Positions 26,911-48,385 of a stretch of DNA of 64,000 nucleotides are shown here, one piece after another (position 1 is the stretch's first letter; every line of letters starts with the position of its first letter). The position numbers and the translations under genes are program-made. Source of the stretch: Gentiana macrophylla (taxonomy: Eukaryota > Streptophyta > Magnoliopsida > Gentianales > Gentianaceae); contig CM047810.1 of assembly GCA_026214975.1 (NCBI GenBank), positions 98,968,316-99,032,315 on the forward strand. The letters run 5' to 3'. The notes under the pieces are model-generated. The model did not search any database and was not told the DNA's origin. It saw only the letters and a program-made list of their open reading frames with translations.

Positions 26911-26919
26911 AATGGAATG
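26911..26919. repeat. Mutator-like element target duplication, left
   Basis: AATGGAATG, matching AATGGAATA at 38638-38646 in eight of nine bases. Eight to nine bases is the normal Mutator duplication length. Confidence 0.75.
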
Positions 26920-27245
26920 GCAGAAATTGGAAAATCAGGTCGTGTCAGACCTGACACTTGAAAATCAGGTTGTGCCTTTTCTGACATGAAAAATATGGTA
27001 AACGTAGAGATCCTTACGTTCAGACGTAGATATATCTACGTTCAGACGTAAGGAAATATAACTAACATTAAACGTTGCAGTTGATCTTTCCCTACGTTTA
27101 AACGTAGGGTTTCTACGTTTAAACGCAGGGTTTCCACGTTTAAACGTAGAAACTATACGTTTTAACGTAGAGAAATTCAAAGGCGATATTTTGCAAATTA
27201 GCTACGTCTAAACGTAATACAATCTACGTTTAAACGTAGGTTTTG
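26920..27245 (+). repeat. left terminal inverted repeat with palindrome array
   Basis: Inverse match to 38310-38637 with only about two small differences over ~320 bp. The outer 60 bp hold an inverted word (GTGTCAG … CTGACAC). From 27003 inward there are about ten copies of a 14-16-bp palindrome, best form CTACGTTTAAACGTAG, at roughly 20-25-bp spacing. Variants have TTCAGA, TCTAAA or TTTTAA centres. Confidence 0.93.
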
Positions 27246-27435
27246 TTACGTTTAAAAGTAGATTTTCTACGTTTGACAGTGGTAGATGGGTATTAATGTT
27301 GTTGTAAGGTGCTTGTTGAATATACACCACATTAACGAGATTTTTCTCATTCCTTCAAAGGCTTTGAATCTAATATCAATTTTGTGCTCACTTCTTCATC
27401 TTTCAAGTCCATTTCTTCATCATTCAAGTGCTAAA

Positions 27436-30400
27436 ATGGGTAAGTTATTGCTATCTTATTTATCTTAATTCAAGTGCTCAATGTGTGTAGGTTATTTATA
27501 TTTGTAGTAATCATACGTCTAAAACCGAAACGTGTGTTTTAAGTAGGTTGTTTATGTAATGTTCATACTTCTAAGTAGTGTATTTAATTATTTTCTTAGG
27601 GTTCAATTACTAGGTTTTAGTGTAATTAATGATATTTATTTAACCGAAATTTGTGTTTTGAGTAGTGATTATGTTATTTATATTGTAGAAATGATATGTA
27701 TTTATCTGAAATGTGTGTTTTAAGTAGGTTGTTTATGTAATTTTATACATCTACGAACGATAGTGTTATAATTTTTGATTTGATAATGTAGTGTAATTTA
27801 TGAAAATGTAATAAATACATATCATGTTTACCATTTTTTGGAAACAATCTTTTTTAAGTTGATAATGATTTAGTTGATACTGACTTGAATCATTTTTTTT
27901 TGTTTTAAACAGATAATCGCAACACTATGATTGTTGTCTCGTTCAACGGAGAATTTACGTATGATCCTATCTATAACCGGTGGAATTATGTAAATGGATC
28001 GATGTTCTCATTATTTGTCCCAAAGAAAATAGGATTGAATGCGTTATTGGATAAAGTGTATTTGAGGCTTGGTATTGATCGGTCTGATTCAAAGCTCAAC
28101 CTAAAAGCTTTGTTTACTTACGGTAGTGTGGGAAATATACCACCTGATGATATCTTAGACGACGAGACCTTAAATGGTTACATCAAGCGGCCTATGACGA
28201 AGAAGAATGTAATTTTTGTGTGAATGCGACACCAGTGGAGGCAAACAATGAACCGATAAATGAGGAGGATGATGGCATTGATTTAAATGAAGATTGCAAT
28301 GCCCCGGATGATAACAATACTCCGGATTACAGTATTGGAAATTTCCCTTCTCCGGTACAAGAACTTGCTACAGATCCAGATTTTAATCCGTTCGAGCAAC
28401 AATATGGATGTAGTGGGTATGAAAACAATGTTGCTACACAAAGGCTTGGTGAAGCTTCAGACCAACCGTTTCGGTATCAACCAGTAAGACCAAGTCATAA
28501 TCTGTCAAATCATCCTTCAAGTAGTCGTAATATTGTCATAAACACCAACCACACCATTCGCTTTGATATCCTCCTAACCAACCTTCAAGTAGTCGTGTTC
28601 CACCCATCCAATGACCATATAATATGTTTGGTGGATCAAGAACTAGTTTTTTGGCTTCTCCGTTTGCACCATATACAAACCGATCAAACCGGCAGAGATG
28701 ACAACAATAATCAGGGTGCACATGCTAGGGCAAGCGTACGAGAAGATTATTCATGGAGGATTCCCACATTTGAAGATGATGATTTACCGAGGTGTTTATC
28801 CACCGGTACGTTACATATGAATGACGTGAACGAATTGTTCATTGGGAAGAAATACAATTCAAAAGAAGATTTTAATTTGAAAATAAAATCGTATGCGATT
28901 CGCGAACAATTTTCGATGAGATTGGGTACGTCGGACACACGTTGCTTGTATTACAAATGTCTTAACGATACATGCAAATGGCATGTAAAGGCTAAACGGG
29001 TGAAGGTGAATACAGATGTCACACGTACATTTGAGATCACAACGTTGAATGATGTCCATACTTGTGCCTCTCAGAATGCGGATAATGACAATCGACAAGC
29101 AACACCTATTGTTATTGCGAGTCTGCTAAGTCAGAAAATGGAAGAACTCGGCAATGAGTATAAGCCCGCACAAATTATGGAGGACATGCTCACAACTTAC
29201 AGTGTACAATTGACTTATGACCAGGCATACCGAGCTCACGAGATGATGAGAATGATGGTGAGAGGTTCACCGACGGAGTGTTACAACGCGATACCCTCGT
29301 ACTTGTGGATGGTGCGTAAGGCCAATGAAGGACCTATATTGACTTTCACTTGATAATCCGGGAAGGTTCGACAGCTTGTTTCATGTCTTTGGGAGCAAGC
29401 CGTCGTGGGTTCAAGTATTGTCGACCTATTTTGTGTGTGGACGCAACTCATCGAAAACCCGTTTCTCGGACAACTATTTATTCTTTGTTCTTTGTAGATG
29501 CCGGTGACCACCTATTCCTCAGAGCCTTCGGTATTCTTTGAAAAAGAATGCAACGATTCATGGGGGTATTTCATGAGACATTTGAGGGTGGCCATTGGAG
29601 GTATCCATGATGAAAACTTGAGCTTTATTTCTGACAGACACCAGGCTATTAGAAATGCGGTTGGTCAAGTATTTCCCGATGCATATCATGGTGTTTGCTA
29701 TCATCATTTAAAAGGCAATCGACCAAAAATGGAAAGATCACGGTTTTGTGAAGATACATTCTATCAAACGACTTATGCATTCTCGGAGGCCGAATTTCTC
29801 GAAAGTTCGCCTGATTAAGGCACAATGTCTTGGCGCATATAAACAACTTGAAGAAATAGGTGTTGAACGGTGGGCGCGTGCCAAATTTCACGAGAAAGAT
29901 ACGCCTTAATGACAAGCAATTACACCGAAAGTTTCAACTCGTGCGATTAGAGGAGCTCGTCGTTGGCACATTCTCAGCCTCTTGGAATTCATTAGAGCTA
30001 CAACGCAGAGATGGTATAATGATAGGCAGATGAAGGCGCTTGATTGTGCGACTATGTTAGCACGGAGATCGATGAAATAGTGGCTTCGAATATTACTGCT
30101 AGAAGGAAGTTCAGGGTTAAGCCTGTTAACCCCGATGAATTTGAGATTCATGGAAATAACTTGCTTCATGGGGTGGTAAATCTACGAGAGAGGAAGTGTT
30201 ATTGTGGTTATTTCCAGAAAATGGAAATACCGTGCACGCATGCTATAGCGACCGCGAAGATCACGCAGTAATTAGTCCACCCGAACTCTGTTCACCGTAT
30301 TATAGGGCTGAATGTTTCAAAGAGATTTACATGGCTAGCATATATCCAATTCCTAACAGAGAGGATTGGATGTTCCAGAGTCGGTAAGAAACATGAAAGT

Positions 30401-30596
30401 CGGAGTGCCTAGTATGAGATATGCGCCTGATGCCAGTGGAGCACCAAGAAGAGGTAGAATTAATACCACTAGAATCCCTTCGAATGGGAATGTCCAGGCC
30501 ATCGAATGTGTGTAGTAAATGTGTAAACATCCAGGACATAACAGAGCTAGTTGCACGCAATACGGTAGGATTGTTATTAGAATGGATTGTTATTGA
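27436..30596 (+). pseudogene. Mutator-like transposase (MURA type), frameshifted
   Basis: Exon 1 is just ATGG (27436-27439). A GTAAGT…AG intron (27440-27912) restores M-D-N-R-N-T and a PB1-like N-terminus (FNGEFTYDPIYNRWNYVNG). Next come the plant MuDR DNA-binding domain (FNLKIKSYAIREQFSMRLG … CKWHVKAKR … HTC), the DDE catalytic domain (CRPILCVDATH, FISDRHQAIRNAV with H-G-V-C-Y-H-H-L, YTESFN), a SWIM zinc finger (CYCGYFQKMEIPCTH) and a C-terminal zinc knuckle (GHNRASC, about 30520-30555). It would cut and join the element's ends in the nucleus. Frame breaks lie near 28220, 29350, 29500, 29815, 30200 and 30515. All catalytic and zinc residues survive, and several breaks are single-base. Confidence 0.9.
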
Positions 30597-30874
30597 TTTT
30601 TGTTATGGTGGTATTAGAATGGATTGTTATTGATTGTTATTGATTTTTGTTATGTAGTATTTTATTAATGGATTGTAGTAATGATTGTATTCGGTTATTA
30701 ATCGGTATCAAGTTTGTCTTGCATTACACTACCTCCGTAAAACTAACAAAGAATTATTACGGGTTTTACACAAGAAAAAAGAGTAATGATACATTGAGAT
30801 AACAATAAGATGACGCTTAAATAAACTAAGGGTGATCAATAAATAGGATAGGATGACGCCTAAATAAATGATCT
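30597..30874. other. convergent gene spacer
   Basis: About 280 bp between the transposase stop (30594-30596, plus) and the B3 gene stop (30877-30875, minus), giving tail-to-tail genes. AT-rich, with a TTGTTATTGAT duplication at 30585-30650. Probably shared 3' ends. Confidence 0.6.
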
Positions 30875-31738
30875 TCAATATTTAGTAATCACCACATTAA
30901 ACACGACGTGATTTTCTATAGGTTGATCAATGACTTCAAAGTCGCATTCATCTCCCCGCATTTAGGTCATTGTCCGTAATGAAATCATACAACCCGCTTT
31001 AAACGAACTTTTTCATTTACCATATAGACAATTCTAGCAGCCATGATTCCCCTGTGGCAATTCGCAGATTCCACGGTCTTGTTTCGCAACATGTCGTTTG
31101 TTTCGCAAATGCCTTTGGAATACTTCTACAAATCACAAACAAATTTAAACTTTTGTTTCAAAATGGGGAAAATAATATCAAACAAGAAAATAACTAAAAA
31201 TATATTAAATATCTCACCACATAATAACAACCATGTGAAAATACCCGGTTTAGCGTAAATGTCGAAAATGGGGATTTCGTTTACCCGCACCGCACTCGCA
31301 CTCAGATCATCAATCGCATCATCATCTGCATCATCGGTCTCGTAAAAAGTCTTCGACAAGAAGTGTGATCATAAACAAGAGTGTCGAAAGTGAAATCCCC
31401 TCGTGTTCAAACACTATAAACTCCTCTCATTCAAGTAATGAGCCGCCACATACTCCTCCCAACCTTCCCCAAAGAAACGAAGAATGCCATTGTCTGTGGC
31501 TCCAACTACCACTTCCCATGTCCCTAATCGGCTTTTGAGAACGGCCCTATCTAGGTTCCTCAGCGTGTCGTTCAACCTATTAACGTATGCTGGAGGTAGT
31601 GTCTATGAAAAAAGAAACATTTCACGTTTGTTTGATCATAATAATACAAGTGATATAAAAGTAAATAAATTAATAATGACATACCAAACTTGTTGCGAAA
31701 CCGCCATCAAGAACTTTAAAGAAACGATCATTATCCAT
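30875..31738 (-). pseudogene. two-B3-domain (REM-like) DNA-binding protein carried by the transposon
   Basis: Three exons on the minus strand. Exon 1 (31738-31685) is MDNDRFFKVLDGGFATSL, the first B3 strand. Exon 2 (31602-31245) continues LPPAYVNRLND, TWEVVVGATDNGILRFFGEG, WEEYVAAHYLNE, then, after a 2-nt GA insertion and a G-run indel, FTFDTLVYDHTSC. An acidic linker (TDDADDDAIDD) follows. Exon 3 (31125-30875) holds a second B3 domain: IPKAFAKQ, NLRIATGES, YDFITDNDLN, then FEVIDQPIENHVVFNVVITK and TGA. Introns have GT/AG ends and exon 1 to 2 is in phase. B3 domains bind DNA; REM proteins are nuclear. Breaks are 1-2 nt and look like sequencing errors, so the gene may really be intact. Confidence 0.82.
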
Positions 31739-32172
31739 TTGAAAGAGTTTGAAGGTGAAGAAGTGTAAATTGAAAGGTGAAGAAGTGTAAATTGAAAGGT
31801 GAAGAAGTGGTTCTCTTTACACTACTTAAAAGAGTTTGAAGAAATCATTTAAAGGGCTCGTGCTTGTACAACAACAATAATTGCATGTACCACACTAGTA
31901 CTTGCATTCCTACGCTTGAACGTAGGAATGTTGCATTCCCTACGTTTGGACGTAGAGAATGTTGCAGCCATACATTTATATTTAAAGAACGATCATTATC
32001 CATTTTAAGTTGAGTTGTTTTTTAAACAAATTGAATACTCATCAAAACAACATCACCAAAAATATAAATGGCTACCAACATACAACAAAATACCAAAAAT
32101 ATAACATACACCAAAAATTCCAAAATTAACATACACCAAAACAATGTTTCTACAAATTAGTTTACAACTGTA
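31739..32172. other. spacer upstream of the B3 gene, with two palindromes
   Basis: About 430 bp between the Ulp1 gene end and the B3 gene start, both minus strand, so it should contain the B3 promoter. Two hairpin-like units lie at 31905-31930 (arms CATTCCTACG / CGTAGGAATG) and 31935-31963 (CATTCCCTACGT … ACGTAGAGAATG), the same core as the terminal arrays. A GGTGAAGAAGTGTAAATTGAAA duplication lies at 31755-31805 (in shortened form here). Confidence 0.7.
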
Positions 32173-35100
32173 CTATTTGATTAAAAAGTTGATGTAAACT
32201 TTTTTCCGGAACAACGGCATGTTCTTATGATGGAGGAGCGAAAAATCTTCCTTGTGCAACAAATGCTCAATGAATTTTACCGTGTATAACCCACAATCAC
32301 CCCTGTATAAAATGGATAGTGTCAGAATAGTGTAGATTGTATAATGTGATAAATAGTTAGAAGTTTATAACACTTACGGAATTGGCATTTGTGGTACGTC
32401 TTCTACTATTTTCACTTCCAAAGGAGGCTTCGCCGGATCAACCATTTTTGGGAGTTGACATAATCGTGCATCGGTCTCGAACACTTTCCTAAACGAAACT
32501 CCCAACCTATTGATGTTGGCTTTTACATCAGGCTTGTACTTTTGCCCGACATGCACAATCAAACAACATAACCTTCCATTGGGAATAGACACTTGCACGG
32601 CTGCCCGGTGAGATGTACTAATGGCCCAGGAGTGTATATCATGGTGTTTTCATCCCACTACGAAGGTACTTAGTCACAAACACGGAATTTCGGTATTTGT
32701 GAGTGCATCAACCGATCCATAATAATAAGCAAAACTGAGCACGCAATGGCCGAATGTGGTGTGAAGCATCTTGGATATGATTCCATTTGGCGCCTACCAA
32801 GTCCATATACGCATCCACATGCCGCACGTATTCAAAATTGAAGTTAGAGATAATGAAATAAGAAATATGCAAGTGAAGTCAAAAGAATATCTGTAGCCTC
32901 CAACTCCATAAGTGGATCATGCGGAGACGTGTCCACCAAGCCTTGGGAAGCGGTAGAGTCAAAGAAAACCGGTGACCACCCGACGGAATTTCAATTGGGG
33001 CGGATTTTCTTGATTGAACCATTTGATGAACTTGTTTTCAAACTCGTCCGAAAACTTTTTTCGCGGTGTCCACCTCACAGCGGTATCTCCGGAAAATCGA
33101 CTATGTGCGACCCATCAGTTAAATAACGTGGACGGGTCACAGTCTGACGTGTCCTCAATCTTCTATCGAAGCATCATCCGCTGCTTACCCAATTGTTTCT
33201 CACTTGGACCCCCAGCTACACAAAATTCAATAAATGATCAACTTATATAATTTTTCACATTATAATTTAAATAACTTACTATAGTTTTGAATTTTAAATT
33301 CAAATTACTTACTATACTGAAGCGTAGACGATGCCTGGTCGGTGGTCGAGTGAGCCTCTGTCATAGCCTCGTGAGAAGCGAGAGGTGTAGCCTCGTGAGG
33401 AGTAGGAGAGGTCAGAGCCTCGTGAGAGAGAGGTGTAGCCTCGTGAGGAGCAGAGTATGTAGTCTCGTGAGGAGGAGGAGAGGCCGTAGCATCGCACGCC
33501 TCTCTGATCCATATAAGGATCGTCCACCAATAAATCGTTTACGAAATCCTCCCCATGCACTCCTCTTCAACGGGCTCGGAAACTCCAAAGCAAGAATCTT
33601 ATCAAACCCGAACGTCAACGCCTGGTGCGTCAGTGCTTCTGATCATCATCACTCGACCATCTCAGAGCCCGGTAGGTATCATGTGGAGGAGATGTAGGAG
33701 GTGGAGGAGGTGGAGGAGATGGTTGCCGATGAGGGGTAGTCTGAAAAATATGTGTCTCAGTTAGTATCATAATACATATAACTAAATTTTGACAATGATA
33801 TAATTTTTTACCTGTGGAGAAGATAGAGGAGGTGGATGAGATGGATGCCGATGAGGGGTAGTCTGAAAAAAATGTGGCCCAGTTAGTATCATAATATAAA
33901 CAAATAAATTTATCGCATAAAAAATTTGACAATGATATAATTTTTTACGATCTCTGGATAACAACGCTTGCATCATCCCTTGAGTTCAAGAAGTATCGCC
34001 CCATGCTCATTCTCGACTGAGCCACCTGGCGAATTTCCTCCCCAAGCTCATTCAACCCACTATCAATCCTTCTCCTCACTGACTCTATAAAGGCAGCAGC
34101 CTTCATCCTCTTCATCGATTGGTCATCTTCCGCCTCCAGCATCCGAACGTAGGAAGTGTGCGGCACACGCCGTGAAGTGGTGGCATGTGAATGAGAGGAT
34201 CGAAGTAGGAGGTCGTGAAGTAAGGGGTGATTGTTGTGTAGCATGGGTGATTGTTGTGTAGCAGTCGTGGATCGCCGTGTGTAGTGGATGCATGTCAGGG
34301 TGTGGACGTGCAATAAGTGCGAGGCGATTGATCACACGTGGCGGCTCGTTAATCTCGGCATCCGAATGCCCCTACCTAGCATCAATCGCCTATCAACATC
34401 CCTTGCGATCCGATACCCTATCACACGACTCTGCGAACAATGTATATTTCATTACAATTAAGAATAACAAAATGTTTACCAAACCGGATATAATTAAAAG
34501 ACAATAACAATGTTTATTAAGCTTATTACCTTATTTGCCTTCGCCGATAATCCTTTCCACTGCGGAGGGTAAGTTTTGCAACTCCATCTCATCATCCGAG
34601 GAGCTGCATCAGGAGCTATGAGGGTGGCATAACGATCGGAACAAAGAATGTCGGGAGGGTCTCGTAAGCCCAAAACTGTAACGCATGTATAACCCCCTGT
34701 ACGGTCACCCTGCCCTCTGAACTTTCCTTGTATGTGTTCATCAAATAACATATCTTTCTAAAAGTCTGGTCCCACAAATAAGTGCCCCATGGATAGTCGT
34801 TTATGCTTTCTACATTCTCCACCAAATAAAAAGCAGAACGGGGTACCCTACTGGTCTCATCGTGACCCATCATTATCCCGTTAATTAGGTAGACTAAACC
34901 TACACGTTGGAGAACTTCAGGATGCTCCCGCTCATCCAATAACCACTTCTCAATATCCGGTATGGTTATCGGTTTATTGTTAGGAAAATGGATGTGGCCG
35001 TATGTCCCCTCTTCAAAACACCTTGAATAAGGTTGGGGATCTTTTCGGGAGATCACCAAACGGTAAACCGGTGATCATGCTAAACTCCTCCTACCGAACT

Positions 35101-35390
35101 TTGCAAATGTACTACCGAATCTAAACTCGCAACTCATGAGGCATATTCGGATATATGGCAATTGAAACATACATATTGGCGGACTTTGGAGGAAAAGCGC
35201 GGTGCTCGTACATTTGAATAAATTCTTTAAAAACCCAGATTTCAACGTGTCTTCAAATCCGATCCTTCTTATGTGGATCTCGAGAAGTTGCTTGAGCTTG
35301 GTCTTTTCCCCTAAAGGTCCAAGTCAAATTTTCTCTTACCTTGTATACATCAGCATTACCATGAGGGCCAACCAAGCTGTCAACATGAAC
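32173..35390 (-). pseudogene. DUF1985-Ulp1 (C48 cysteine protease) gene of the Mutator-like element
   Basis: Minus strand. The N-terminal DUF1985 domain is at about 35350-34616: RFGSTFAKFGRRS, an I-T-G-L-P-F-G-like stretch, then VGLVYLINGIMMGHDETS, FYLVENVESINDYPWGTYLW. A serine/arginine and proline-rich middle follows (33300-34300), with a helical piece (MKRMKAAAFIESVRRRIDSG). The Ulp1 fold is at the C-terminus: HVDAYMDLVGAKWN, catalytic His codon 32623-32621, Asp codon 32560-32558 (VMLFDC), then PLEVKIVEDVPQMPIP, a 32377-32303 intron, and GDCGLYTVKFIEHL with the catalytic Cys codon at 32295-32293. It ends in a TAG at 32175-32173. The family removes SUMO-like tags; its role in transposons is unknown. 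Frameshifts and a TAG just after the catalytic His (usually Trp) interrupt it. Confidence 0.85.
33330..33500 (-). repeat. short tandem repeat inside the DUF1985-Ulp1 gene
   Basis: Repeats of a GCCTCGTGAG-centred unit with GAGAGGTGTA / GAGGAGTAGG. On the minus strand one frame gives repeated S-R-G-Y-T-S. It lies in the low-complexity middle part of the protein and is likely variable in length. Confidence 0.7.
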
Positions 35391-35427
35391 ATATACATTG
35401 TAAATAGGATATGTATTTATTTTTACC

Positions 35428-35429
<2 letters not shown>

Positions 35430-35463
<34 letters not shown>

Positions 35464-35601
35464 ATATAAGTATATATATATACACATATAGATATATGTG
35501 TATATATATGTATTTATTTACTCCAATATGTATATATGTAGATATATATCTATGTATGTGTGTATATATATGTGTATATATATATACACATATAGATATA
35601 C

Positions 35602-35634
<33 letters not shown>

Positions 35635-35875
35635 ATAAGTATATATATATACACATATAGATATATGTGTATATATATGTACTTATATATGTATTTATTT
35701 ACTCCAATATGTATATGTGTAGGTATATATCTATGTATGTGTGTGTATATATATATATATATATATACACATATAGATATATGTGTATATATATATGTAT
35801 ATGTGTAGATATATATCTATGTATGTGTGTGTATATATATGTATATATATATATATACTCATATAGATATATGTG
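35430..35875. repeat. TA/TG microsatellite block with ~180-bp higher-order period
   Basis: Runs of TATATA, TGTGTG and ACACATATAGATATA arranged in about three larger units. The landmark TTATTTACTCCAATATGTATAT occurs at about 35513 and 35693. A similar block continues at 36640-36815 on the other side of the LINE-like insert. Open frames here (Ile/Tyr/Cys/Val repeats) are meaningless. Confidence 0.9.
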
Positions 35876-36600
35876 TTTTTTTTTTTTTTTTTTTTTTCAA
35901 ACCTCAGAAATTTTATTAATAAAAACTGAAGTTTTACAATGGCCAACCCCTGGCCTAACCTCCAAAAGAACATGCGTCATCAATACATGTTTATCACCTC
36001 CTTAAACCCTTAGTCCGGAAAACCCATTGTGGGGAAAACCGGGTGCTAAGGGAAGAGTATGATCTCCCATGTATTGGAAACAAAAAAAAAACTAAGGAGA
36101 GCTGATACAAGAAATCAACAAAAAAAGAAACAGCAAAAAACAAAGAAACTAAAAGCAGTCTTCATCCGTGTGCAGGCATGTCCAGCATATCCATCCACAG
36201 CATTGCCCAGGCACCTCCAGCAATAGGATTGTAGTGTCCATGCAATCATCCAAATCAAACGAATATTGCTCCAAGTACTTACAATCTGCATAGGGACAGC
36301 AAACCACAGCACCACAAAAAGGAACAGAGAAACCAAAGGAGATCTGTTAAAAGTATACAACCTGCTTGCACCCTCCATATTGATGAAGGTTGCTTCCAAG
36401 TGTGTGCAGCATTGATTAAGCCTCAACCAGCTCCAGCTCCTGTTGATGATGAAGAAGGGGGTGTACAGGATCCAAACAAGAGATAAGAGAAACCAGAAAG
36501 CAAAAATATCATTTGAGGATAGATGCAACCTGTTTGCACCCCTCAACATAGTGAAGGGTGCTTCCCAGTGGAATATGCAGTAGATTATCATTTTTTCCGT
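35876..36600 (-). mobile_element. LINE-like 3' fragment with poly(A)
   Basis: On the minus strand the fragment ends AATAAAATTTCTGAGGTTTG followed by a ~20-base A run (35877-35897 as T), with an AATAAA signal just upstream, and sits inside a microsatellite. This is the form of a 5'-truncated retroposon. The body contains an internal direct duplication of about 170 bp (GGAAGCACCCTTCACTATGTTG and GGAAGCAACCTTCATCAATATG, each shortened here). No reverse transcriptase is seen, so the LINE assignment is an inference; a processed transcript is the alternative. Confidence 0.5.
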
Positions 36601-36815
36601 CTGATAATGGGAAGTTGGAGAAAATAAATACATATGTAAGTACATATATATACACATATATCTAAATGTGTATATATATATACATATATATACACACACA
36701 TACATAGATATATATCTACATATATATGTACATATATACACACATATATAGACACATATACAGACACATAGTATACATATATATACACATATATATATAC
36801 ATATATATATACGCT

Positions 36816-37226
36816 AAAATGTCTTATCATCTCTTTTGTTTTTGGAACATCGTTGTTTTGTGTTGTGTTCTCGTTGTTTGTAACGTTAGGGGTAAAGAGA
36901 AGAAGATAATATGGTTTTTACCACGTCATAGAATACTTGATGATGACGAGGAGAACAAAGGCCGTCGGAGCCAGCGGAATGAGACCTTATATTTTCAATC
37001 TAAAGGGTGCCTCACTTTTTGGCCGAGGATTACCAGTCTTTGGGACAGGAAAAGATGCTCTGTTGAGCGAGACTTAATGAAATTTTCTACGAGCTACCTA
37101 CCAGAGCCCCAATATAAAGCCTGGATCTTAGGGCATGACACAATGGATCGAAGGAATCGAAAACACCTAGAGGGAAAGCATGCAATTCTAAGAACCTCAT
37201 CAAAGCGAGGCGCACCATGGAATTGA
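36816..37226 (+). CDS. unrecognised open frame
   Basis: The non-microsatellite part of a frame that runs on to a stop at 37224-37226. The sequence is basic and hydrophilic (RHRILDDDEENKGRRSQRNE … KHLEGKHAILRTSSKRGAPW) after a hydrophobic stretch (FWNIVVLCCVLVVC). I recognise no domain. It lies inside the Mutator-like element, upstream of the minus-strand DUF1985 gene, so it could be captured sequence or noise. Confidence 0.25.
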   Translation, partial: KMSYHLFCFWNIVVLCCVLVVCNVRGKEKKIIWFLPRHRILDDDEENKGRRSQRNETLYFQSKGCLTFWPRITSLWDRKRCSVERDLMKFSTSYLPEPQYKAWILGHDTMDRRNRKHLEGKHAILRTSSKRGAPWN

Positions 37227-37717
37227 GTCCGAGATATTGATTTTTGGATTTTCAAACAACAGTAAGTTTGTCGTTTGGTTCAATTTTTAATTAACATACA
37301 TGTTAGCCATAATTTCAAGGGCATTTTTATTGTTCCCCATGTTAGCCATACTTTCAAGGGCATAATTAGGTCATTAGCAATACTACTATCGTGCTACCTT
37401 AGAATGAAAGCAAACATAAATCACAATCAAATAACATATACATTATCAATCCCAATGTAACACCATACACATGCTTCCATTTCCCATTTTTCTATCAAAT
37501 TCAATATCATAAATTACACTACATTATCAAATCAAAAATTATAACACTATCATACATATTCTCACATATTAATAATTTTACATTAATTTACTTCTAAAAA
37601 CCTATCATACATATCATTACAGTTCATTTTAATAGAATTAGCCCCATTAATTCGAATCAAATAACAATATGAAAAACATATACATTAAATTCAATATAAA
37701 GTAGAAATCTGCAGTTT
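37227..37717. other. AT-rich interior of the Mutator-like element
   Basis: No gene. A GTTAGCCATA-TTTCAAGGGCAT duplication is present at about 37302-37364. Confidence 0.55.
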
Positions 37718-37945
37718 TCTACGTCCAAACGTAGTGTTTCTACGTCAAAACGTAGACAAATTACGTTCGCACGCGTAGAGATCTGCAGGTCTCTACGCCC
37801 AAATGTAAAACCTTACGTTCGAGGCGTAGAGAGACTGCAGATCTCTACGCCCCGAAGCTTATAATCCTACGTTCGCAGGCGTAGAGACCGCATTTCTCTA
37901 CGCCCAAACGTATAATACTTCTTCATACGCCCAAACGTATGAACC
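37718..37945. repeat. internal palindrome array of the Mutator-like element
   Basis: About eight units of the TACG…CGTA type at 22-35-bp spacing, in forms such as CTACGTCCAAACGTAG and CTACGCCCAAACGTA. Several are joined by ATCTGCAGATCTCTACG-like words that are themselves palindromic around CTGCAG. They resemble, but differ in centre from, the terminal arrays. Confidence 0.85.
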
Positions 37946-38309
37946 TTCATACAAAAACACTTCTTAAACCTAAAGCGACAAATCATACAATCAAAATCAA
38001 TATAATGATTATCAAGGACCACCACAAACCACTCTACAATAAATATTCGGAAATAACAAGCACATGCTAAAGTGAAATTAATATGATATACTATAAAAGA
38101 ATATTAGGGAAAATACATACCCTTTCGCTTTCAACCGCCATTGCACTTGAGAGATTGTGAAATTGGACTATCAGAATTTCTTGCAAATATCGCCAAAATT
38201 CGCCAATCGCCACTCAGCCACTCAGAATTTGAAATAGGATAGAAATAAAGAAGATAAAAGGGAAGGACAAGTATGTGAACCGTTAAACGTAATGAACTCT
38301 ACGTTTAAA

Positions 38310-38637
38310 CGTAGGGTTTCTACGTTTAAACGTAGATTGTATTACGTTTAGACGTAGCTAATTTGCAAAATATCGCCTTTGAATTTCTCTACGTTAAAAC
38401 GTATAGTTTCTACGTTTAAACGTGGAAACCCTGCATTGAAACGTAGAAACCCTACGTTTAAACGTAGGGAAAGATCAACTGCAACGTTTAATGTAGTTAT
38501 ATTTCCTTACGTCTGAACGTAGATATATCTACGTCTGAACGTAAGGATCTCTACGTTTACCATATTTTTCATGTCAGAAAAGGCACAACCTGATTTTCAA
38601 GTGTCAGGTCTGACACGACCTGATTTTCCAATTTCTG
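38310..38637 (-). repeat. right terminal inverted repeat with palindrome array
   Basis: Inverse match of 26920-27245. It ends CCAATTTCTG at 38637. The palindromes continue a little further inward (38290-38330) out of register with the left end, suggesting array length change. Confidence 0.93.
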
Positions 38638-38646
38638 AATGGAATA
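38638..38646. repeat. Mutator-like element target duplication, right
   Basis: AATGGAATA, matching 26911-26919 in eight of nine bases. Confidence 0.75.
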
Positions 38647-43841: not shown

Positions 43842-46800
43842 TTAGTACTTTAATGGCAGAAGATTTTCGGGCTCTAGAAAGGGCCACGTATAATTGCCCA
43901 TGTGAGAACACAGAGTTCGTGAATATATACCTACACGATCTAGCGTTTGACCTTGTGCTTTATTGATAGTCATGGCAAAGCACAAACAAATCGGGTATTG
44001 ATATCGCTTGAAAGGAATGGCACATTTATCTATGTTGGAATTTTGTAGAGGAATTTTGTGTAGGATTGTTTGTTTTTCCGCAAAGGGCCCGAGAGCTATT
44101 TCAAAGAATAATTGTATGCTTTTTAGTTCCTTGCATAATAAAGCGTGTGCCGTTACACAACCCCTTGCACCGGGCTCAAAGTTGCGTAGGAGCATTACGG
44201 GAGAATTTACTTTTAACATTAGTTCATGAGGAGGAAGGCTAACGGGGTAAGTGAATTAAGGAAGTCTCATAATCTGCCTGGTGAGAACGGTCGAGTGCAA
44301 CATCACTACTTGATGTATGTAATTAGTTCACCAGGCATTTGTTGTAACATCTCATCATTTATGTCTTGTACACACTCGTTGGTTGGGGCTAGTAGCGCTA
44401 TTCATAAGCAGTATGATGGTTTGTTGCGAAAGCTTCAATATCTGGATATACAAATTGAATTAAATGTCTTAATGAAGTTTCTTTATCGTGAAAAGGAATC
44501 AACATGTTTATTGGTAGCTGGACATTTCCATTATCGTCCTCAGGTTCTGTACCGTCACCTATTCGTAATAAATACTCAGTAAAGGCAGGGTCTGCAATAG
44601 CTCTCATGTTCTGCGTAAGGCGTATTTTGTGAAGTACAGGCCATAGTAGTGAGCTAATTAAGGAAGCATCTAGCTGTTCTTGTCTACTTGCGTTGGTAAC
44701 CACTGGAAGTACTTGTCGGAAATCACCACCAAAAACAACGATCTTATTTCCGAATGGGCTGTTAGTCTCGGTTATATCTTTAAGCATTTCAGAGAAAGCT
44801 TCTATTGACTCTCTATGAGCCATAGGAGCCTCATCCCATATGATTACCTTTGCTTCTCGTAGTAGTGTTCTTTGTTGTAGATTGCTTACTAACATTTGCT
44901 ATTTTTTTGTTCCTCTTGTAACGGTAGCTTGAAGCGTGAATGTGCGATCCGACCTCCGGGAAGTACACATGCTGCCACACCTGAGCTCGCTGTGGCCAAA
45001 GCGATGTGTCCTTTTGACCGAATTGTTGCCAAGATAGCTCTGTACAGGAAGGTTTTTCCTGTTCCGCCTGGACCATCTACGAAGAATGCAGTTGCTTCAC
45101 TTGACGCCACTTTGGCCATTATTTGTTCAAAAGCATACCGTTGTTGTTCATTAAAACTGTGGATATTTAATGATCGAGCCTCATCCACTGTTAGACTTTC
45201 TCAAATGCCATTTCTCTCGCACCGGGACCTTGACGAGCTATTGCTTCAGCCTCCGGCCCCAACCTATAGTCCTCAAGTTTCTTTCCCATGTCATCAAGCA
45301 TTACGGCAATGTCAACTAATGCCTTCATTTGAGCGTCAGTAATATTTGATGAGCAAAGAATTCCCTGTAGGTAGTCGTCGCATAAAGGTTCCTTGTACTT
45401 TTCCCATAGTTTCCGTGGATCCGAAGGTGAGCAAAAAACCAAAATCGACACAAAAAGATGCCGTAGTTGTCTCGGCATTTGGTACATGGAAGCTTCCTCT
45501 AGGCATTTATCAAGGTCATAATCTGTCGTTAATAGATTTCTTCGTAGAGCTGATTCTCTAAACGTACAATGCAGATAACCATCCACAGTTAGAAGATCAT
45601 CAAACGATGTTGGAGCGATAATATGGTTGAGCAACAAACGTAGATAATATCGTTCACCTTTAGTTGGACTAACAGAAACAATTCGGCCAACTACCTTACC
45701 TCGTTTACGTTCTGCCCAAGCACGTTTTGTCGAATCCCAAACAAAGTGTTTGGGGAAATCTTTGTAAAGAAGCTTCAAATTCATGGCTATAGAATTAGTT
45801 CTGTTCATTTGGAAGAATTGAGTTAGCATTGTTCGCGACAAGAAATTGTTTGTAACAATACTGTTTATGTCTTGATTAGTGGAGAAAGAAACGAGATAGT
45901 TGTTAGGGAGGTGGAGTTGCAAGGGAATTACTGCTGGATGCATTTCGAACAAGTCAAAGAAGAATAAATGCCATGCTGCCTCCGGTGGGCCAACCCATCT
46001 GCCTTTTTGGTATTCGCGAATCTCATTTTCACAATTGAACGTAGACATGTGAAAAGAAATTTTATCAGGACCTTTGTAAATGTACTTATAGATATATTTC
46101 ACAAGTTTAATTGTCGAACATATTTCTACATTGATGTGGCAATTGTACTTTTGTAGTAAGTATGGATTGTACGGAACTATCCAACGGTTGTCAATTTCAT
46201 GGCCTCGCACACGCGCATTAATGCCGTTATTACGGCGTCTATAATGTGGGTAACTGTTTGAGCCATGTGTTGTATACTGAGCAAACTCTTTAGGGTACTT
46301 GTTTTTGCACCTTTTGTCTCGCATACATGGGCATTTAGGGTTTAAGGGACCACAAGGGCCATGTACCATGTGCTTCAGAACCAGACGATGTAGGTGTGGG
46401 TATCTAAGAGGGTCAGGTAGCTCAGCGCTGATATAACGATCATAAGCATCAGGGTTCAGAGGTTTTGAGTCTCTATCAACAATTAAGAGAACATGAGCGT
46501 GAGGTAAACCCCGCTTTTGAAACTCAATTGAGTATACGAACGCAATAGGTAAGCCAAATATATGGTCCTTTAGAAGTTCAGTTTTGAGCATTTCCAACTT
46601 CGCTTTGAAAACTCGGGTAAGTAAGTCAGGCCGGTTTTGAGGTAATTCACCTGTGATTAAATGCTCTGTGATTTCAGGCCATGCGGAGTTACATGTCATA
46701 GTCAAGAAAAAATCAGGCTTTCCGAAATTTTGGACAAGACACATTGCATCCATATACCTCTTCTTCATGTCTCGTGGTCCTCCTATGAACGTAGGAGGGA

Positions 46801-48385
46801 GAATGGTCTTACGCCCAACCTCAGAAGTGGACGTATGCCCAAGCGCAATGCTATCAAGTAAACCTTGTAAACAATGCATGCACGAAATTCCCTTTGTTGC
46901 TTCTCAAGATATTCTAACCTTGACGTCTCAACTTTTACAAACATGTCCACAATGTATTCTTGCGAGTAATCTTCCGTGTGTAACAAGATTGATCGGTCAT
47001 TCGCTTCGCTTTTGTAGTTTATAACAATATATCGACGGCAAGAAAGAAATGATTTCTTTTCCTTGAACATTCACGAGCAACTGTTGCATAAAGCCAAAGT
47101 AACATGTGAAACAGAGGATGGTAGGATAGCAAGGACAAGTAAATTGATGCAAGATACCTTCTTCTTCCTCACGTATCAATTCGTCAGCATGCTGAACAGT
47201 GTTGATTAGACCTTCCAAAGGTACTTTGCATCTGTAATTCCGTTTCCTTTTATTCGGGGGAAGCTTCTGAATGCCATTGTGCCAACCGACGTCTCCACGG
47301 GGGAAAAGAAGTGGATATTGTAAACCATCATAACATCCAAAATAGTGGCGGATCTTATGGGAATGACATTTTTTTCGTAGATTTGGATATGGCGGTGGGG
47401 TTAAATTGTTCCTCACTCTCGAGAGAATATAATTGCAGAAACGTCGTTACAGGTCGGCTCATTATAAACACGTTGATCAAGTATCGGACAAGTGACAAGG
47501 CATATTTGGTAATTGTCAACAGATTCAAGATCTCTTACTTGTTTTAGGAATCTCACATATGGATTTTCAGATAGGATTTCGATCAATTTCCTCATTATGA
47601 CCTTAGAAACACGTTTTGAGAGTTTCAAACGCTCTTCAAGCTGAGTATCTTCATCGTAGAAATACAGTTGAAGAGCGGAGGGGACATCACCAGTTTTTCC
47701 AAATGAACCTAAGTAGTGATGAATCTTGCCTTGCACTTTAAATGTGTAAACGCCCATATGGTTCCTCATAAGGTCCCTATCTGTCTTGGCTGAGAATGTG
47801 GTAAACGCTAAGTTATTATTATAGCTTCTCACATATTTTTTGAAATCAACACTTTCAGGGTCTGACCCTGTAAACAGATCAACCAAGGCAGATGGCATTT
47901 CCGAGGGAGCAATACTGATTTCTCCCTCGGAGCAACAAAATCCAGGAGGTTCACGGTAGAAACGGTTGGCTGCGCAATATTTACAGTCAGGTACTGTAGG
48001 CAACATGGCAGCAAGCGGGCTATCATTGTCAGAGTTTTGATGAGACAATAAGCCATCGTTCTGCGTGGCATCATTAAACCTAGCCGAGGGATACATAGCT
48101 TCGTCTATATACGCCACGGCAAAGTGTAGCGAGATAAGATGAGGAAGCCATGCCAACCTGAGGCATAATTCCTGTTGAATTTGCATTTTGGGGTATTTCA
48201 GGGCCTATTATTTGGAAATCGAGACGTAAATTGGATAGGCCGGTATTGTTTGAAGGCTGTTCGGTTTCGAAATTACGTGAAGCAATGTTTTCATTTGGAA
48301 GTGATGTTTCGGAACTCTTGCCGGCTCTCTCAGCGTAAAGCACACGCCGACGTTCAAGGAAGGCAGCTTTCTTATCAGCGTTCAT
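43842..48385 (-). pseudogene. Helitron RepHel protein (HUH endonuclease plus PIF1-like helicase), frameshifted
   Basis: N-terminal part 48385-47413 (RRRVLYAERAGKSS; FFC-like Cys region; Helitron N-domain FTTFSAKTDRDLMRNHMGVY), 47416-46997 (YFGCYDGLQYPLLFPRGDVG) and 47070-46783 are in successive frames. The long frame 46879-45191 (562 codons) has the HUH motif KRGLPHAHVLL (His 127/129), a Cys/His block and the two-tyrosine motif KYIYKYIYKG (Tyr 262/266). The helicase follows: Walker A GPGGTGKTFLYRA (44889-45188), Walker B VIIWDEAPM and GGDFRQVLPVV (44398-44895), and FAMTINKAQGQTLDRVGIY (43842-44219). It nicks and unwinds DNA for rolling-circle transposition. At least five frame breaks, one in an A7 run near 44908; all key residues are kept. 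Confidence 0.93.

Follow-up and report, generated by a model that had tools for sequence, protein, structure and literature searches.

The 64-kb window analysed here (the whole stretch of 64,000 nucleotides from Gentiana macrophylla) harbours at positions 26921-38637 an 11.7 kb Mutator-like element, which represents one copy of a large plant family and carries a transposase gene, a DUF1985-Ulp1 gene and a gene for a protein with two B3 domains, together with arrays of one short palindrome. The element is bounded by a left terminal inverted repeat (TIR) at 26921..27239 on the plus strand and a right TIR at 38320..38637 on the minus strand, which consist of two adjoining blocks (175 nt with 99% and 144 nt with 100% complementarity, totalling approximately 319 bp) and differ from each other in a few base positions and roughly one indel. 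It is flanked by an inexact target-site duplication, AATGGAATG on the left (26911..26919) and AATGGAAT on the right (38638..38645), with 8 bases in common and one additional base on the left side. A genome search with the TIR returned 1235 candidates, the best 40 of which were scored and found to be full or near-full length with 91-100% identity. The sample of the family comprises 21 elements, namely the window copy and 20 TIR-anchored loci each examined 10 kb inward, and both ends were found for 13 of these. An exact 9-bp target-site duplication was present in 9 of these 13 elements, two of which (C1b and C1d) have one target site in common, while in the window copy, C598, C1c and C10c it was inexact. 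Long TIRs combined with a target duplication of about 9 bp are characteristic of Mutator-like elements.

The transposase gene region (27909..30633, plus strand) encodes MuDR DNA-binding, MULE and SWIM domains, all of which exceed the Pfam cut-offs (PF03108, 36 bits against 25; PF10551, 41.9 against 27.6; PF04434, 30.5 against 19.6) and thereby identify a MULE-type transposase, and a search for protein relatives retrieved two Mutator proteins. The three matched pieces lie in a common frame with stops between them, the intervening coding-like stretches being in other frames. The left TIR presumably doubles as the promoter of this gene. On the opposite strand, the DUF1985-Ulp1 gene (32173..38141, VANC/KIU-like) comprises a putative first exon at 38141-38121, a DUF1985 region at about 35074-34619 and an Ulp1 end at 32364-32173. 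The Ulp1 (Peptidase_C48, PF02902) match scored 26.8 bits in the window and 42.5 bits in the relative L023 (cut-off 20.7), while the DUF1985 match was below the curated Pfam cut-off of 35.1 both in the window fragment (E 3.1e-7, 30.9 bits) and in the relative L011 (E 2.2e-5, 24.9 bits). From their order and strand we infer that the two belong to a single gene. The putative first exon reads ATGGCGGTTGAAAGCGAAAG, with a GTATGT splice site after it, and is located just within the right TIR; it was detected by fuzzy search in 12 of the 21 elements and is present in all 13 elements with both ends, the right ends of C6b and C10b carrying it at one mismatch each. The right TIR sits upstream of this exon, and the right-hand palindrome array, being downstream of it, would be located in the first intron.

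Two further observations concern this gene. The DUF1985 region (34619-35074 in the window, L011:2956-3327) also matches PF10536, the 'Plant mobile domain', with E values of 2.5e-6 and 1.1e-5 respectively, both below cut-off, which suggests a link between these two domains. In addition, the putative first intron holds a TA/TG/CA-rich block of short repeats at 35400-36830, which looks like a feature of the family rather than a nested insertion, since similar low-complexity frames occur in L011, L013, L015-L017, L021, L027 and L028.

The two-B3 gene (30875..31738, minus strand) sits between the transposase and the DUF1985-Ulp1 gene and has three exons at approximately 31738-31685, 31602-31245 and 31124-30875, with splice sites read by eye, and about eight frame changes by reading. 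When the frame breaks were bridged, the read-through protein matched PF02362 in two stretches (67.2 bits, E 1.3e-18), as is to be expected of a protein with two B3 domains, while the unmended first-B3 piece was weak in the window copy alone (E 0.081) and scored 28.2 bits against a cut-off of 30.1 in the relative L022. Matches to solved structures were likewise weak, the best being At1g16640 (E 0.019), which we take to be a REM protein, followed by the non-B3 protein SlyD (E 0.31) and by NGA1 and VRN1 (E 0.87), and the label REM-like, as against ARF, RAV or LAV, is accordingly tentative. No protein relatives were found for the B3 read-through or for the DUF1985 piece in a database that may be thin in plant proteins, so that this absence means little. 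The gene was presumably taken from a host. The boundaries and gene inventory given in an earlier note on this locus are thus borne out by the TIR and domain matches, with the correction that the transposase, DUF1985-Ulp1 and B3 genes are all broken by stops or frame changes in the window copy.

The palindrome is the 14-letter word TACGN6CGTA, mostly in the form TACG-YYY-RRR-CGTA. With up to two mismatches to TACGTTTAAACGTA, 21 matches were found in the 64 kb, as compared to 0.30 expected (100 shuffles, maximum 2), and all 19 exact copies of TACGN6CGTA in the window are within the element. Exact or near palindromes occupy the left TIR (27015, 27037, 27093, 27114, 27135, 27156, 27203 and 27225, with 27247 just inside it), the right TIR (38321-38543, with 38300 just inside), the region upstream of the B3 gene (31911-31954) and an internal array at 37720..37939 (minus strand) which falls within the putative first intron of the DUF1985-Ulp1 gene and includes three looser copies with longer centres. 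These are the places in which the earlier note had reported about 20 or more copies. Across the 13 elements with both ends, window included, 251 sites were found in 92,089 bp (2,500 of which were masked), as compared to none in either the 45,428 bp of sequence flanking them or the 52,283 bp of the window outside the element, two totals which overlap by 400 bp and combine to approximately 97 kb. The sites are distributed such that 171 are within 400 bp of an element end, 66 are in the right-hand array and 14 are upstream of the B3 gene, and in the elements examined none is inside any transposase, DUF1985, Ulp1 or B3 match. The middle six bases read YYYRRR in 221 of the 251 (154/171 near the ends, 53/66 in the right-hand array and 14/14 upstream of B3). 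In the genome as a whole, 1432 occurrences of CTACGTTTAAACGTAG were counted, as compared to 6 of the reversed control. The palindrome word is therefore specific to the element, and the same word is found in three separate control regions in which the contexts of its units differ. Variation in the palindrome centre consists largely of transitions, which could reflect deamination of methyl-cytosine or a reading of purine/pyrimidine shape.

The array upstream of the B3 gene (31911..31954, minus strand) consists of two palindromes in the window copy. It was compared across 14 distinct B3 copies, chosen as TIR-anchored or best-scoring and thus not at random (L020 was dropped as it is masked there, and L034, L036 and L043 repeat counted copies). 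Thirteen of the 14 carry 2-7 exact palindromes approximately 160-380 bp upstream of the gene, in units of about 31 bp. In the one exception, L041, sequence of the DUF1985 gene is joined near the B3 start and the array is absent owing to a deletion. TACGN6CGTA is retained in 50 of the 53 flank-anchored units; all of these 50 have a YYYRRR middle, the left half varying only between C and T and the right half only between A and G.

The association of the B3 gene with this family extends well beyond the window copy. It was found within 10 kb at 7 of the 20 TIR-anchored loci, and at two further TIR loci a B3 copy is situated about 15 kb inward, possibly in another element. The gene and its upstream array were both present in 4 of the 13 elements with both ends (the window copy, C11, C6b and C10b), a figure which understates its frequency, as the 8 elements without a second end are uncounted and four of them (C1a, C5, C13 and C2) carry B3. 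A search with the B3 gene yielded 832 candidates, and all 40 that were scored, the window's own included, matched at 91-100%, while a 34-base word from its first exon has 181 exact copies in the genome and its control none. Among the matches listed for contig C1 (to 88 Mb), 9 of 12 B3 words are within 15 kb of an exact palindrome, although only 0.75% of the sequence qualifies, and 9 of 21 palindrome clusters have a B3 word within that distance. Fifteen B3 copies had no listed TIR; when 800 bases were probed where the layout of the window copy would put one, nine gave a palindrome-bearing TIR match of more than 200 bp, one gave a match of 57 bases and five gave none. The B3 gene is a stable component of a high-copy family. 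The earlier note had suggested testing whether the gene and the arrays co-occur in the family, and regarded relatives with arrays and never the B3 gene as fatal to its view; the 7 loci, the 181 word copies and the 13 upstream arrays show that the two do occur together, with arrays that vary from 2 to 7 sites.

To our knowledge, transposon self-recognition and un-silencing have been worked out in detail mainly for the VANDAL/VANC system of Arabidopsis. DUF1985 is part of the VANC proteins, which bind short motifs that occur as arrays in non-coding DNA (PMC5735166, drawn upon here, as are the other papers below, from the parts of the text available to us). Such arrays are found ahead of VANA and within VANB and VANC introns, and their repeats undergo rapid gain and loss (PMC5735166; PMC10398659); VANC genes with an Ulp1 domain are named KIU (PMC13317346). 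The element described here shares with these systems its Mutator-like character, a probable DUF1985-type gene accompanied by Ulp1 as in KIU, and arrays of a short motif, variable in copy number, located in non-coding regions, among them introns and the sequence in front of the transposase. It differs in three respects: it has TIRs of approximately 319 bp, whereas VANDALs are described as non-TIR elements (PMC13317346); its motif is palindromic, whereas those known for VANC lack palindromic symmetry and are arrayed in a single orientation in the account available (PMC5735166); and it carries an additional two-B3 gene. By the features tested it is not a member of VANDAL owing to its long TIRs and palindromic motif. 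Its DUF1985-Ulp1 gene nonetheless looks VANC-type, since VANC proteins contain DUF1985 and some also Ulp1, and the element thus appears, on DUF1985 matches that are below cut-off, to hold a VANC-like gene beside B3. The earlier note had envisaged a system comparable but unrelated to VANC, a description that has to be revised given the resemblance of the element's own gene to the VANC/KIU anti-silencing genes. PMC13317346 also cites Mutator elements with Ulp1 from melon, rice and grapevine; these resemble the present element in having an Ulp1-domain gene, while a B3 gene and palindrome arrays are unmentioned in what that one paper, in the parts available, says of them. Among the open-licence papers listed, as judged by title and start of abstract, no work linking a B3 gene to a Mutator element was found, and in the available parts of a paper on the REM gene family (PMC10949715) the only match to transposon words was the title of a reference. 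What appears to be new is therefore an anatomy of self-recognition similar to that of VANC, to which a REM-like B3 gene has been added.

The second relevant precedent comes from host proteins with two B3 domains. Repeated motifs are recognised by the REMs VDD, VAL, REM12 and REM13, which act with GDE1 to recruit CLSY3/4 and RNA polymerase IV (Pol IV), leading to small interfering RNAs and methylation (PMC12270911). Robust recruitment of Pol IV requires double or triple motif repeats, i.e. at least two, and the published motifs are direct repeats of TTTTGCTTAT and AAGCGGAT (PMC12270911). AlphaFold3 predictions for these REMs have the N-terminal B3 domain dimerising and the C-terminal B3 domain reading DNA (PMC12270911). 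The likeness to our system resides in the two B3 domains, which occupy opposite ends of the protein, and in the dependence of recruitment on repeats of a motif; the differences are that the B3 gene here is borne by the element in high copy, and that contact with GDE1 and Pol IV is known for the host REMs only. These predictions also bear on the geometry of recognition, for which the earlier note had suggested that the two B3 domains of one protein fit the two half-sites of one palindrome. This is not the simplest arrangement, as a dimer of the B3 protein would supply two readers if, as predicted for the host REMs, the N-terminal domain dimerises and the C-terminal domain reads DNA (PMC12270911).

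The reading that we favour, to which we assign a probability of roughly 0.45, is that the B3 protein reads the palindromes as an address of the family and regulates its members together with the DUF1985-Ulp1 protein. The members of this Mutator-like family, bounded by TIRs and present in high copy number, carry a transposase, a VANC/KIU-like gene and a REM-like two-B3 gene, with one palindrome arrayed in the control region of each of the three. The B3 protein, as a dimer, would read the two half-sites of the palindrome (TACGYYYRRRCGTA); the arrays would act as an address tag through which it acts in trans to tune how every copy is transcribed or silenced, and the DUF1985-Ulp1 protein would be a partner in, or effector of, anti-silencing. 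Shorter copies without B3, in which the arrays of the TIRs and of the intron persist, would depend on service in trans. The B3 protein is ranked first as reader, at less than one half, on account of its DNA-binding fold, a palindrome suited to a dimer, the array upstream of its own gene and its many copies. By analogy with the host proteins, a REM-like protein of the element could plausibly recruit the Pol IV machinery to the arrays or compete with it. A more elaborate version is doubtful, namely that the family took over a regulator of the host REM type and grew palindromic arrays for it, such that a single element-encoded factor would set, for each copy and depending on the size of its array, whether that copy attracts or escapes RNA-directed DNA methylation; this would be VANC-like self-recognition rebuilt around B3 and operating alongside a true VANC/KIU relative. 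If B3 does read the arrays, the family would represent a second design of transposon self-recognition, in which a conventional DNA-binding domain meets a well-defined palindromic target whose array units can be counted. As many copies vary in the size of the array and in whether they have B3, target choice, service in trans and competition with host REM/Pol IV silencing would then become amenable to testing.

Several results weigh against the role assigned to B3. None of the 14 copies is open end to end in the assembly; four are open through the first-B3 part of exon 2 and four through exon 3, and none through both. The majority of copies are in frame inside each B3 domain and broken in the linker between the domains. 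Codon changes among the copies are near neutral, with a ratio of nonsynonymous to synonymous polymorphism (pN/pS) of 0.78 (41 synonymous and 119 nonsynonymous changes, including 3 stops), and purifying selection on B3 is therefore not claimed. Nine of the 13 elements with both ends are shorter and without B3 while retaining the end and right-hand arrays, and on contig C1, within the range and matches given above, 12 of the 21 palindrome clusters are more than 15 kb from any exact B3 word. The TTTTGCTTAT and AAGCGGAT motifs of host REMs are on their face unlike the palindrome, and the VANC precedent indicates a DUF1985 protein as reader. An intact ancestral B3 gene is nevertheless likely, since the majority of copies are in frame within each domain, though the linker is broken. 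The indels themselves may be in part artefactual: among 7 B3 copies, exon indels were denser by CHG sites (16 in 122 bases within 2 of a CHG as compared to 21 in 544 elsewhere), a pattern that fits consensus error at methylated cytosines, while across the 14 copies indel blocks in exons (35 in 672 bases) and introns (6 in 200) showed no clear difference. If the pattern does mean such errors, other transposon genes in the assembly may be affected as well.

The most serious competitor, which we consider possible, follows that precedent in having the DUF1985-Ulp1 (VANC/KIU-like) protein read the arrays and lift silencing as in VANDAL, B3 being a target or co-regulator. Since DUF1985 proteins bind arrays of rapid repeat turnover in the introns of VANB and VANC and upstream of VANA (PMC5735166), and the arrays here are in comparable places, with one in the presumed first intron of the DUF1985 gene, this protein would be an equally natural reader; the palindromic form of the sites, the long TIRs of the element and DUF1985 matches under the curated cut-off in both matching fragments argue against a simple transfer from VANDAL. 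It is unlikely that the palindromes are binding sites of the transposase, at the ends and internally for autoregulation, with B3 incidental. Such a role would suit the 171 of 251 sites located close to an element end, and Mutator elements are said to have transposase sites and promoters in their long TIRs (in the parts available of PMC3310237), but transposition has no obvious need of the array in front of B3, which is 4-5 kb away from the left end, or of the right-hand one located in a putative intron.

A slightly smaller likelihood still is given to a factor of the host, such as one of its REMs acting with Pol IV, which would read the arrays and silence the family, the B3 of the element being a captured competitor; this leaves unexplained why the element amplifies and keeps the sites of its own silencer, unless its B3 copy wins the competition. 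Least probable of all, in our judgement, is that B3 is a passenger acquired once by the ancestor and that the arrays are readerless by-products of repeat slippage. The near-neutral codon changes and the lack of intact copies among the 14 would be in keeping with a passenger gene, whereas slippage does not readily account for the retention of both TACG half-sites in 50 of 53 flank-anchored units whose middles vary by transitions only, nor for the presence of one word in three separate control regions with differing unit contexts.

Two minor observations were made in the course of this analysis. Two short copies of approximately 2.4 kb, L014 (C1:21.89 Mb) and L018 (C1:22.37 Mb), have an identical target duplication and a few flanking bases in common, and one of them thus probably arose by segmental duplication rather than by transposition. 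Elsewhere in the window, long frames at 43845-48204 and 273-2422 resemble, as judged from the letters only, pieces of a Helitron helicase and of a retrotransposon polymerase.

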